Shown: in pieces, positions 7,331 through 12,249 of the stretch
Position numbering within the stretch: the stretch's first letter is position 1
Layout of the letters: every line of letters begins with the position of its first letter
Source: Candidatus Latescibacterota bacterium
GTDB taxonomy: Bacteria > JAAXHH01
DNA: 64,000 nucleotides
Assembly: GCA_022822725.1 (NCBI GenBank)
Contig: JAJEAN010000007.1
Location: forward strand, 936,382 to 1,000,381
Direction of reading: 5' to 3'
Made by a program: the position numbers and the translations under genes
The notes under the pieces: generated by a model
Told to the model about the DNA's origin: nothing
The model's input: only the letters and a program-made list of their open reading frames with translations
Database searches by the model: none

Positions 7331-8425
7331 TCAACGAAACCAGTCGTAATTCAGCCCCAGCGACCTGTCCTCCAGGGGCAGGTCGACGCGCACGCCGCCC
7401 CTTGCCGAGGAGAGCTTGAGGGCGACTTCCACTTCCAGCGCCATGGCCACGCGGCGGCCCGAGTTCTTCGGTTCGTCCAGCTTTCCCGCCAGGCAGTCCA
7501 TCACGTCGTTCAGCGAATACACCCCGCCATAGGGTGGCACGAACTGGGGTCCCGGCCAGGGTGTTTCCACGCGGTAGGGCCGGCCCTCCACCTCCATCTT
7601 CTCCCACCGCTGCCAGCCCGTGAGGAAATCGTAGGCCAGGTCGCCTTTGCTGCCGTGCAGGCGCACGCCTGGTGCGCCGGTGCGGAAGTGGACCACGAGG
7701 CCGCTTTCGGTCACCATCATGCCCTGACCCGTGAACTCGTCGCTTCCGGACTCCCGCCGCGGTTCATCGCCGGTACCGATTACCCAGACCGGTTCGCTGT
7801 CCAGGAAATAGGACCAGTGCTGGTGTTGGGCGGCGGGTCCCGGCGCTTCGATCGACAGCAACTCCCCGATGCCGCCGTCGCGCACCAGGGCGCCGGCACG
7901 GGCGAAAGATGGATGCGTGGTGGCGATCGCGCCGCAACTCAACGGCACGCCCGCTTCCGCGCAGGTCCGCACCATCCGGTCCGCTTCTTCGAGCGTATGG
8001 GCCATGGGCTTCTCGGTGAATATGCCCTTCGCGCCATGATGCACGGCGAGGCAGGTCAGGTCGGCACGATGCTTGGTGTTCGTGGCAATGGAGACGATGT
8101 CCGGCCGCTCGATGGCCAGCATATCCCCGGCATCGTCATAAAGGGACACGACGTCGTACCGCTCCCTGAAGGCCCGCAACCGCTTCACATCCCGATCCGC
8201 CGCCGCGACGAGGTCGATCTCGGGACGGTCCCACAGCGCCTCGGCGTAGGAGGACGGCAGACCCTCCGTGCCGGGATTCTCATGATAAAGGAAACGCCGG
8301 TGGATATTCAGCTCTGGCGTGGGACGATCGATATCATCCACGTCCCACACGCCCGTCCTTTGGGCGAGATCGTAAAGCATACCCATCCAGCCGAGACCGA
8401 TGAGTCCTGCCCGGTACTTCGCCAC
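7331..8425 (-). CDS. Gfo/Idh/MocA-family oxidoreductase
   Basis: This is an NAD(P)-dependent dehydrogenase of about 364 residues with an N-terminal Rossmann fold (AGLIGLGWMG) and the family motif EKP in FTEKPMAH, whose lysine is catalytic. The C-terminal alpha/beta domain is present. The substrate is probably a cyclic polyol, sugar or amino-sugar derivative. I start it at GTG 8425, because GGGGAGGAGG sits right upstream, instead of at codons ten residues earlier. It is the last gene of a minus-strand run with an Ldh2-type dehydrogenase, an aldolase, a methyltransferase and a second Gfo/Idh/MocA enzyme. Confidence 0.88.
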   Translation of the reverse strand: MAKYRAGLIGLGWMGMLYDLAQRTGVWDVDDIDRPTPELNIHRRFLYHENPGTEGLPSSYAEALWDRPEIDLVAAADRDVKRLRAFRERYDVVSLYDDAGDMLAIERPDIVSIATNTKHRADLTCLAVHHGAKGIFTEKPMAHTLEEADRMVRTCAEAGVPLSCGAIATTHPSFARAGALVRDGGIGELLSIEAPGPAAQHQHWSYFLDSEPVWVIGTGDEPRRESGSDEFTGQGMMVTESGLVVHFRTGAPGVRLHGSKGDLAYDFLTGWQRWEKMEVEGRPYRVETPWPGPQFVPPYGGVYSLNDVMDCLAGKLDEPKNSGRRVAMALEVEVALKLSSARGGVRVDLPLEDRSLGLNYDWFR

Positions 8426-8467
8426 GGATTTCCTCCTCCCCTGTAACCAGGTCAACGGCGAGTCGGC

Positions 8468-9475
8468 CTATTCATTCCAGGGCAGCGGCACGCCCAGCCG
8501 CTCGCTCATTTCCTGTACGGCACGTTGTTCGATCTCGCCGAACCGGATGCCCTGATCCCGGTGGAGCGCCACGCGCGTCTCTTCTATCGCGCCGGGCAAC
8601 AAAGCTTCGTCATATCCCGGCATGGGCTCGTAGGTCTCTCTCACATCCCTTACGAAACGGTCGACTTCCTTCCGAAAATCCGCATTGGGAATCACCGTTT
8701 CGATATGAACCGCCAATACCATGCCGCCATGATTTGCCCCGGGCCACCGCGCCTGAACCTCATCAGCCTCCGGCAGCGCGGCGCCGGCCAGCGCGCATCC
8801 CAGTACCGTGGCGACCGCCCCGTAACCGATGCTCTTGAAGAAGGCGGCAGGTATGCGGGACAGCAAATCGTCGAATTCGGGCGAATGCTGGTAGTCTGCC
8901 AGGATGCGCGTGGCCACGTCCTGTACGATGGGTGGTTCATCGCCCGCCGGTATCCCGAAGCAAAGCGGGGGATTGCCGAGGTACCCGATCTGGGGCTTCG
9001 GGTCCTGGCCTCGGGCATCGCCCATGTTGCGGTAGCCCTGGACCGAGAACCCGATGCAGCCCGACGCCATGCACATGCGGGTGTAGTGGCCCGCCGAGCC
9101 GTAATGGCCAATGTGTCTGACCAGTCCCATGCCCATTCCCGTTTCGCGCGCCCGGGCGATGGCGCCTTCCGTCGCCTCCACCATGGGCCAGTACCCCAGC
9201 GTGCCATCGCCGTCCACGATGACGGAAGTGGGGGATTCGGCAATGACCCGGACGTCGGGGCGAGGGTTCGCCTGCCCCTCGGCGAATGACCGCGTGTAGC
9301 CGGATGCCGCTCGGACCCCGTGGCTGCGTACGCCGCGCAGATCGGAGTTAACGAGCAGGCGGCTGATGATCGAAGCATGGTGATTGGATAGACCCACTTT
9401 TTCGAAACAGGCTGTCGTGAAGGCCAGCAGGGATGTCTCATCGACATGGATATATGCTTCCGGCGGACGATTCAT
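8468..9475 (-). CDS. Ldh2-type malate/L-lactate/ureidoglycolate dehydrogenase
   Basis: The 335-residue protein belongs to the Ldh_2 family of NAD(P)H-dependent 2-hydroxyacid oxidoreductases, which have a non-Rossmann fold. Typical motifs are NSDLRGVRSHGVRAASGY near the N-terminus, RHIGHYGSAGHYTRM, and GYGAVATVLGCALAGA before the C-terminal AVHIE strand. The ATG at 9475 follows AAAGGAACC; a TTG one codon earlier is less likely. Together with the aldolase upstream and the Gfo/Idh/MocA gene downstream it suggests oxidation of a sugar acid or 2-hydroxyacid. Confidence 0.87.
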   Translation of the reverse strand: MNRPPEAYIHVDETSLLAFTTACFEKVGLSNHHASIISRLLVNSDLRGVRSHGVRAASGYTRSFAEGQANPRPDVRVIAESPTSVIVDGDGTLGYWPMVEATEGAIARARETGMGMGLVRHIGHYGSAGHYTRMCMASGCIGFSVQGYRNMGDARGQDPKPQIGYLGNPPLCFGIPAGDEPPIVQDVATRILADYQHSPEFDDLLSRIPAAFFKSIGYGAVATVLGCALAGAALPEADEVQARWPGANHGGMVLAVHIETVIPNADFRKEVDRFVRDVRETYEPMPGYDEALLPGAIEETRVALHRDQGIRFGEIEQRAVQEMSERLGVPLPWNE

Positions 9476-9565
9476 CAATGGTTCCTTTGGAATTGAAGCG
9501 GTGTTTACATATTGGTGGAAATGGCCTGCGTGGTTTAACGAAATGCATGGACGAACAGGTCAGAA

Positions 9566-10291
9566 TCAGACCACCATGGGCGTCTGCAACACCGTGAGGC
9601 CCATGTCTACGTACTTGTCCCGGTCCGACGGATCCAGGAGCGCCAGGCTTACGGCGACCGGCGTGCCCTCCATTTCGCGGGCGACGTGCCGGACGCAGTC
9701 GTCCACGGTGCGGAAAGGCGGCCGGTGGTACCGTTCGATGTCGAACATGAGGTCGTTGGGGCCGAAGGTGAGGACGTCCACGCCGTCCTGGGCCAGTTTC
9801 CGGCAGTTGATGACCGCGTCCACCGACTCGAGTTGCAGCCACAACACGCCGGTGTCATTCCACCAGGCCGCGTACGCGAGGCGGTCGGAACGGTCCCCGA
9901 TGCCGTAGCGCGCGCTTCCTCCCCAGCTTCTCCCGCCGAACTGCGGATAGTAGAAGAAGTGGACCGCCTCACGCACGGTGGCCTCCTCTCTGACTTCGGG
10001 AACGAGGATTCCCGCGGGACCAAGGTCGAGGTAATTACCGATCAGGTAGGTGTGCCGGGTGTGCTTTATGCGCAGGATCACCGGCACGCCCAGCGCTTCG
10101 GCCGCGCTGCAGAAGGATACGATCCGGTCTTCGCTCTGGGGGCCATGCTGGCAGTCGACGTTGAAGAAATCGACCTTGCCCTGCTGAAGAATCCGCGCCA
10201 GATCCTCCTTGCCGGACTCCATAGATGCTCCAACACCGTTTACGATTTCGCCGTTGCGTATGCGCCGTTTCAGCGAGGCCGGATGGGCCAT
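9566..10291 (-). CDS. HpcH/HpaI-family aldolase
   Basis: The 241-residue protein matches the class II (metal-dependent) pyruvate aldolases that cleave 2-keto-3-deoxy sugar acids or similar compounds. VDFFNVDCQHGPQSED carries the catalytic histidine region. The metal-binding glutamate and aspartate are expected in WLQLESVDA and FGPNDL, and ILRIKHT holds the conserved arginine. I use ATG 10291 because GGAAGGGAGA precedes it; an ATG eight codons upstream would overlap that ribosome-binding site. It sits between the methyltransferase and the Ldh2-type dehydrogenase on the same strand. Confidence 0.87.
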   Translation of the reverse strand: MAHPASLKRRIRNGEIVNGVGASMESGKEDLARILQQGKVDFFNVDCQHGPQSEDRIVSFCSAAEALGVPVILRIKHTRHTYLIGNYLDLGPAGILVPEVREEATVREAVHFFYYPQFGGRSWGGSARYGIGDRSDRLAYAAWWNDTGVLWLQLESVDAVINCRKLAQDGVDVLTFGPNDLMFDIERYHRPPFRTVDDCVRHVAREMEGTPVAVSLALLDPSDRDKYVDMGLTVLQTPMVV

Positions 10292-10333
10292 GGCTGGAAT
10301 CTCCCTTCCGTTCATTGAACCTGGTCAGTTTGC

Positions 10334-11077
10334 TTACAGCCGGGTCATTACGCGAATTTGGACCGGGGTATCTACGCGGATATTGGCTTCCGGATGACGA
10401 AGCATGATCCGTTCCAGGCGGCGCCGGTCCGTCACTGGAATGTGCGCCTTGTCCCACCACATCGCCCTGCACCGGTCGAACAGGTCCAGGCGTTCGAAAT
10501 AGTGCCGAAAAATGAAATCCGTGTGCAGATCCAGGGTCAGTCTACGGTCCCTGACCGCCTCCGCCACGACCCGGTCCGCGTAATGAAAATCCACGTAGTC
10601 CCGGGCCAGCGTGGCCACCAGGATTACTTCGTGCTCCACCAGGCAGTACACCTGCTGCCTTGCGTGACGGCGTTTACCCTCATTTACCGGGAAGTACGGC
10701 CGTATATCGACGACGCAACCACCAGGCTTCACAACGCGACAGGCTTCGTGAAGGGCATGCCCCATGCCCTCATGTCGCACTCATCACAGAGACCAGGAGA
10801 ACAGGGCCAGGTCGAAACTGCGGTCCTTAAAGGGCAGACGGGACGCGTCGGCCACGGCGAACCGGGCGGCGTCCTCCAGCCGTTTCCGGGCATGGGCGCG
10901 CCTTACCTCTTCCCCGGCCATGTCAACCCCGACGATTGTACCAATCCAGCCCCTTATCCTGCTAGACAGTCGGCCGTCACCGCAGCCGATATCGAGGACG
11001 CGCGCACCGGCAAACGCTATGTGCCGCTTGAGCATCCGCGCTTCACGCCGTTCCGGGTCGACACGCACTCCCCTCAT
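10334..11077 (-). pseudogene. Class I SAM methyltransferase interrupted by two adjacent in-frame TGA codons
   Basis: Residues 1-97 contain the SAM-binding glycine motif (RVLDIGCGDGRLSSRI) and end FSWSL. Two TGA codons follow (10786-10784 and 10783-10781), after which the same frame continues for 148 codons with VRHEGMGHALHEACRVVKPG, the usual next strand and helix of a Methyltransf_11-type domain. The read-through length of about 249 codons is that of a complete methyltransferase. The start ATG 11077 has a good ribosome-binding site (GGGAGG). No frame change is needed, so this is not an indel error. It is either a pseudogene or a recoded gene: a hairpin at 10752-10770 (7-bp stem, 5-base loop starting with G) lies 10 bases past the second TGA. 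It lies in the probable catabolic operon between a Gfo/Idh/MocA enzyme and the aldolase. Confidence 0.75.
10752..10770 (-). promoter_or_regulatory. Hairpin just downstream of the tandem TGA (SECIS-like candidate)
   Basis: On the minus strand AGGGCAT pairs with ATGCCCT around the loop GGGGC. The apical loop starts 17 bases after the second TGA and begins with G. That shape is compatible with the general description of bacterial SECIS elements, but short GC-rich hairpins are common here, so this is suggestive only. Confidence 0.25.
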
Positions 11078-11114
11078 TTCGGCCTCCCGTGTCTACGTTC
11101 ATGTTCGAGTTCGG

Positions 11115-12137
11115 TCACAACGAGTCGAGTTCGGCCACGTCTTCGATCTCGACCCAGCCGCCCGTGTCCTTCGATTGTTCAATGGCCAGCCCCGTGTGAT
11201 AGAGCTGGGCGGCCATCCTGCCGTCGGTACGGTTCGGCGTGCCCTGCTCGACCGCGCCCAGGAACTCGGCGACGCTCTCCGCTTCGCCGGGCCACCCGCC
11301 CACGACGGGCATCGCCGGCGCGACGTGGGTCGTCTCGCCATCGGCATCGGAATCGGCATCGGACTTGGTGCGCAAGTGGATCGTATTCCGGAAATAGTCG
11401 ACGGTCAGATCACCTTCGTCGCCCGTCACTTCGATCGTGGTTTCCAGCTTGTCCACCGAGTTGATGTTCAGGTGAATCGTGCCCCAGAGACCACCGTAGT
11501 CGAAATGGACCACGCTGTGGAACTGGCGCCTGCCCGCCTGTCCGTGGCCGTCCATGACGAGCACGCGGCCGGGCGACCGGCCTATGATACTGTTCAACCC
11601 GTCGACGTACCAGGGCCCCAGGTGGTGGGCAAGGCACAGATCCGGTCCCCCGAATCCCGCCCAGTCGCTCCGCAATTTCAGGTGGACGGTCTGTGGAGCG
11701 CCAATCGCGCCCGACCGCAACAGTTCCGCGGCACGATGCACGACGGTGGCGTATCCGATCTCGAGATCGCCGTGCGTAACCTGGTCGGCGGCGACCAGCC
11801 GCTTAAGCATCTTGCGTATGCCATCGGGACAGCCGGCAAGCGGTGGTTCGTAATAAGCGGCGACGCCGGCGTCGAGGACGGCATTCATGGCGGCTTCGTG
11901 AATGGCATCCGGTATGGCCAGCATGACCGCGTCGAGTTCGGGACCATCCAGCAACGCCTCGAATCCGCCGTAGACCTGTACGTCCGGGCCCAGTTCCTCG
12001 CGGATTCGTTCCTGCGATGCCTCGCTGAAGGCCGCGGCGGACACGATCCGCACCCGTTCATGCTGCCGAAGGGCAGGCACGAACGCCATCCGGGTCCAGC
12101 CCCCGTAACCGATCAGGCCGACTCGTATGCTGGACAT
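11115..12137 (-). CDS. Gfo/Idh/MocA-family protein with an altered EKP motif
   Basis: The protein is 340 residues with an N-terminal Rossmann fold (VGLIGYGGW) and the typical two-domain layout. Where the family normally has EKP, here it reads YYEPPLAG, so the catalytic lysine is replaced by proline. It may have lost oxidoreductase activity or use other residues. An acidic Ser-Asp-Ala repeat (SDADSDADGE) lies in the C-terminal domain. The ATG has an AAAGGTG ribosome-binding site. It is the first gene of the minus-strand run that continues into the interrupted methyltransferase, the aldolase and the Ldh2-type dehydrogenase. Confidence 0.85.
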   Translation of the reverse strand: MSSIRVGLIGYGGWTRMAFVPALRQHERVRIVSAAAFSEASQERIREELGPDVQVYGGFEALLDGPELDAVMLAIPDAIHEAAMNAVLDAGVAAYYEPPLAGCPDGIRKMLKRLVAADQVTHGDLEIGYATVVHRAAELLRSGAIGAPQTVHLKLRSDWAGFGGPDLCLAHHLGPWYVDGLNSIIGRSPGRVLVMDGHGQAGRRQFHSVVHFDYGGLWGTIHLNINSVDKLETTIEVTGDEGDLTVDYFRNTIHLRTKSDADSDADGETTHVAPAMPVVGGWPGEAESVAEFLGAVEQGTPNRTDGRMAAQLYHTGLAIEQSKDTGGWVEIEDVAELDSL

Positions 12138-12243
12138 GGTGCACCTTTCTATGGGTCGCCTTACGGATTACTAATCGTTTCACTACGGGTGGATACCGAG
12201 GTATATTACGACAATGAATACCGCCGCGTATCGCAATGGCAAG

Positions 12244-12249
12244 TATAAT
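12244..12249 (+). promoter_or_regulatory. Possible -10 element
   Basis: A perfect TATAAT lies in the divergent region between the Gfo/Idh/MocA gene and the DUF481-type gene. I see no good -35 at the right distance. Confidence 0.25.

Follow-up and report, generated by a model that had tools for sequence, protein, structure and literature searches.

In the 64,000-nucleotide stretch of DNA analysed here (the window), a gene on the minus strand very probably encodes a methyltransferase with two neighbouring selenocysteines (Sec, U), a reading that rests on comparative evidence only, no protein having been observed. The features involved are:

10334..11077, minus strand: putative double-selenocysteine methyltransferase gene, class I SAM-dependent, 247 codons plus TAA
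10781..10786, minus strand: tandem TGA TGA, codons 98-99 (Sec98-Sec99) in the motif SWSLUUV, invariant in 14/14 homologues
10752..10770, minus strand: putative bacterial SECIS hairpin A-GGGCATG-GGG-CATGCCC-T, 8 bp with loop GGG, under synonymous constraint
10643..10645, minus strand: codon of C145, aligned with the second arsenic-ligand Cys of ArsM and conserved in 13/14 homologues

The reading frame starts with an ATG (11077-11075) that has a ribosome-binding-like GGGAGG upstream, ends with a TAA (10336-10334), and is interrupted solely by the TGA pair, the first TGA occupying positions 10786-10784 and the second 10783-10781. A first-pass annotation of this DNA had placed the gene at 10334-11077, which is correct, the strand being minus. 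It had also stated that both halves lie in one frame and together make a normal-length methyltransferase, and this is borne out by the 247 residues of the protein obtained by reading through the TGAs and by its match to Pfam Methyltransf_11 (residues 28-122, E 2.4e-19), which runs across the junction. With 70.2 bits against a cut-off of 21.2 for the domain, and with a Rossmann-like fold supported by structure matches, the protein qualifies as a class I SAM-dependent methyltransferase, and the motifs DIGCGDGR, D52 and RVLKPGG are kept. On the opposite strand, an open frame of 494 codons (window 10764-12248, plus strand) overlaps the methyltransferase and its upstream neighbour and resembles a high-GC shadow ORF.

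A search of 16 genomes of the phylum gave 14 homologues, the window's own counted, with one per genome; the others are 85 to 42% identical to the window protein and are spread over four genera. Each has exactly two TGAs, in the same place, and the alignment of the 14 members reads S-x-S-(L/Y)-U-U-V, then x-x-(E/K)-G-M-G-H-A; a DNA pattern for recognising further members would be TGATGAGT, 7-10 bases, GGCATGGGGCATGCC. As judged from this alignment, the recurrence of TGA TGA is far beyond chance, and because it is found in all 14 homologues from 14 genomes, a sequencing error is very unlikely. A single genome alone would show the same picture if two nonsense mutations had inactivated an ordinary methyltransferase, but such a pseudogene would not be expected to present the identical two TGAs in every homologue, across genera. 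Moreover, dN/dS values calculated within the genus against the window gene are 0.12-0.21 before the TGA pair and 0.21-0.28 after it, and the gene has no other lesion. Both halves are, by these estimates, under purifying selection, which excludes the pseudogene for practical purposes. The in-frame TGAs of the family could also be taken to mean that TGA has become an amino acid codon in this lineage. This is hardly conceivable, because TGA is the commonest stop of the long ORFs in the window (21/45) and itself ends family members, although only two of the 14. Even so, fewer than half of these long ORFs end in TGA, and yet all 14 homologues keep TGA TGA.

The family appears to be confined to the phylum. 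No member was found outside it when 384 genomes, the majority of them belonging to other phyla, were searched with a profile, and a scan of GTDB r220 contigs revealed at least four members, all within the phylum among the matches listed, the named relatives being MAGs labelled Gemmatimonadetes, Candidatus Latescibacterota and uncultured bacterium. Scores exceed 360 bits for members and reach at most 74 for the next methyltransferases, which have EH, HH, TH and similar pairs in the UU columns. None of the relatives found carries Cys-Cys at these columns. The first-pass annotation had suggested looking for precisely such homologues, and had regarded unrelated residues at the two positions as a refutation; what distant methyltransferases carry is indeed EH, HH or other pairs, but the missing Cys-Cys form does not amount to that refutation, since UU is retained in the orthologues. 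Homologues with Cys in place of Sec commonly back up a bacterial selenoprotein gene without being strictly required, and this support is lacking here. As no Cys form is known, a selenoprotein family of this kind would escape searches based on Cys homologues. Two non-Sec methyltransferase paralogues, in which ordinary residues take the place of UU, were also noted within the phylum (L030:770-1195 in genome G015, 40% identity; L031:548-883 in genome G001, 35%).

Downstream of TGA TGA, every family member has GGCATGGGGCATGCC, which forms an 8-bp stem with a GGG loop; in the window gene the core GGGCATG-GGG-CATGCCC lies at 10769-10753. The first-pass annotation had located this hairpin correctly (10752-10770), whereas its distance of 17 bases after the second TGA does not hold: the stem begins about 10-11 nt past that codon, and the start of the apical loop is 18 nt downstream of UGA 2 and 21 nt downstream of UGA 1. 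The SECIS-like character then attributed to the hairpin has gained support, in that it fits the bSECIS model of PMC13188914, spacing included, for both UGAs, is under synonymous constraint and shows one compensatory pair. Among 47 degenerate columns that are invariant at the amino acid level, five have synonymously invariant codons, and four of these five are the hairpin codons G104, G106, H107 and A108, an arrangement that random placement would produce with a P of about 3e-5 (shared ancestry ignored). The sole compensatory change in the hairpin is a G-C to A-U replacement in one member (L028), by which the stem is preserved. Since the observed covariation is equalled in 36 of 500 shuffles, covariation alone constitutes weak evidence. 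A scan of the window with Rfam gave no match at gathering thresholds.

The same region offers some footing for a split methyltransferase, made as two polypeptides through termination and re-initiation with the hairpin aiding the coupling, since the codon following TGA TGA is GTG in 12/14 members and all members keep an in-frame ATG (M105). Yet two members have GTC at codon 100, M105 falls within the hairpin, and the stops are TGA in 28 of 28 cases, never TAA or TAG. In addition, the break would cut the SAM domain in two after strand 4 and before the helix that follows, and the Sec machinery is present, all of which renders the split highly improbable. It could still be argued that one UGA only is read as Sec and the other by a near-cognate tRNA, considering that tandem Sec decoding in bacteria is undocumented in the sources searched and that service of both codons by one SECIS is unproven. 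We give this a slender chance, however, as both codons are invariably TGA when replacing either with a sense codon would spare the cost of termination, and as the distance to the hairpin is permitted for both UGAs.

The machinery for selenocysteine insertion is encoded in the window's genome, where selA and selB are found above cut-off, selD is present, and the tRNA-Sec gene (selC, anticodon TCA) adjoins selB. All four genes that the first-pass annotation had proposed to look for are thus accounted for. Across the phylum, selA occurs in 15 of the 16 genomes and selB in 14, and both genomes devoid of the UU methyltransferase miss one part of the machinery, G013 being without selA and G007 (87% complete) without selB. 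In G014, which has the UU methyltransferase, selB was not found in a fragmented, 85% complete assembly. One selD (L032, G000:C9:294246-295187) lies in a long open frame that extends upstream by several hundred codons in the same frame, possibly an N-terminal fusion. No in-frame TGA was seen in the examined stretches of two molybdopterin oxidoreductase genes of the window's genome.

Between the two readings that had been left side by side at the outset, pseudogene or double-selenocysteine protein, the latter is favoured by the machinery, the TGA TGA in 14/14 homologues, the constraint on the hairpin and the purifying selection. According to this double-selenocysteine reading, both successive UGAs would be decoded as Sec by SelA/SelB/SelC/SelD, with one hairpin, its loop 18 and 21 nt away, directing insertion at both. 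While the frame, its conservation, the machinery genes and the hairpin constraint are matters of observation, the reading of both UGAs as Sec in the cell is inferred. Against it stand the lack of a Cys-Cys homologue, the existence of one compensatory change only, and the failure to find selB in G014.

Among the 119 prokaryotic selenoprotein families catalogued in 2026, none is listed with a UU motif, the families of Haft and Tolstoy 2025 being covered only to the extent that the 2026 review relays them, and none of the NCBIfam selenoprotein models reaches its cut-off with the UU protein. Two of these models, MduS (NF045649) and the methyltransferase/UXPK-star double selenoprotein (NF047649), combine a methyltransferase domain with two Sec, as is inferred for the UU protein, but their motifs are CxxU or UxxG and no adjacent pair is listed. 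An identity with MduS can be rejected (33.6 bits against a cut-off of 380; no MduS in the 16 genomes of the phylum), and the score with NF047649 is 48.1 of 460 bits. The only precedent found for adjacent Sec residues is the algal PDI_e with its GUGUU motif, reported in 2020 as the first selenoprotein with two consecutive Sec (PMC7539508); no bacterial case was found in the open-access literature. The algal protein shares the consecutive Sec residues inferred for the UU protein, but it is eukaryotic, has a thioredoxin-like fold and depends on a different SECIS system. If true, the bacterial case would be one in which a single hairpin serves two successive UGAs, and would offer a direct test of SelB acting twice at one SECIS and of the limits of spacing. 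It would also add a selenoprotein family and a methyltransferase with a naturally occurring vicinal selenolate site.

An AlphaFold2 model of the UU protein, built from 5 sequences and of moderate quality (mean pLDDT 73.6), presents a class I methyltransferase in which strand 88-94 is followed by the UU loop and by helix 102-115. The best PDB matches include AtmM (6uv6), TleD (5gm1), RebM (3bus) and BioC, with the small-molecule methyltransferases TleD, RebM and AtmM among the best in both sequence and fold. In the sequence alignment, the counterpart of UU is C-H in TleD and approximately H-H in RebM; neither these enzymes nor AtmM have selenium. By alignment, the pair falls in the loop that follows beta-strand 4, at the entrance to the SAM pocket and on the substrate side of that pocket.

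The gene neighbourhood is of limited help regarding function. The window (7331-12137, minus strand) has a same-strand series formed by a Gfo/Idh/MocA oxidoreductase, the methyltransferase, an HpcH/HpaI aldolase, an Ldh_2 dehydrogenase and another Gfo/Idh/MocA protein, most of which recurs within the genus. As the upstream oxidoreductase and the downstream aldolase are shared only within the genus, they say little on function. In G014 (L133:2856-11146) the neighbours of the UU methyltransferase are a member of the fatty-acid-hydroxylase family, a gene for a heavy-metal P-type ATPase about 1 kb downstream and, slightly beyond it, one for an AcrB-type (RND) efflux protein.

The second arsenic-ligand Cys of the ArsM proteins of the same phylum (GEC/TGC) aligns with C145, which is replaced by Gly only in L029, and the first lies no more than 2-3 residues away from UU, in a register that differs between aligners. 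Presumably, Cys156 and Cys206 of human arsenite methyltransferase (AS3MT) correspond to the ArsM cysteines of the SNC and GEC/TGC motifs. In the human enzyme, these two have been established as arsenic-binding (PMC3877260). ArsM and AS3MT resemble the UU protein in being class I methyltransferases and, as far as the ambiguous register of the loop allows, in having one chalcogen residue behind strand 4 besides the one that aligns with C145, and Sec forms of them are known. Nevertheless, the UU protein lacks the Cys-rich N-terminus seen in ArsM, and an ArsM identity was discarded given its score below the curated cut-off (35 bits against 263, NF008823). The ArsM selenoprotein fusions NF041537 and NF041536 score likewise low (51.9/510 and 42.7/575 bits), and the Sec motif listed for them is UxxG, not UU.

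Vicinal selenolates, probably together with C145, would be able to bind a soft, thiophilic methyl acceptor of SAM, for instance As(III) or a different metal(loid). A soft metal(loid) is our best guess because of the arsenic-ligand alignments, C145 and the metal-transport neighbours in G014. That the enzyme methylates such a substrate held by its selenolates is inferred from how a single loop and a single Cys align, has not been shown, and seems to us to have somewhat less than an even chance of being right. The composite proposal, namely one SECIS programming two Secs, a vicinal selenolate active site and the binding and methylation of a soft metal(loid), all holding jointly, is put forward with more reserve, as a tentative one. 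When oxidised, the pair could close into a vicinal diselenide. Hence the selenocysteines might serve in redox, as a diselenide switch or in thiol/peroxide chemistry, instead of holding a substrate, in agreement with the notion that most prokaryotic selenoproteins are redox proteins (PMC13188914). Such a purely redox function appears somewhat less likely in an enzyme that retains DIGCGDGR, D52 and RVLKPGG and whose UU pair lies, by alignment, on the substrate side of the SAM pocket, but neither a redox role nor a thiol/selenide substrate can be ruled out.

Genes of the ArsM type occur in two of the 16 genomes of the phylum, G013 (L141, L143) and G015 (L142, L144), and are absent from 13 of the 14 genomes carrying the UU methyltransferase. 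The former genome has ArsM and neither the UU gene nor selA, and the latter has ArsM together with both. This distribution is suggestive of the replacement of one gene by the other, in too few genomes to go further. A Sec at the end of the G015 ArsM was also considered and dismissed, the in-frame TGA found there looking like an ordinary stop.
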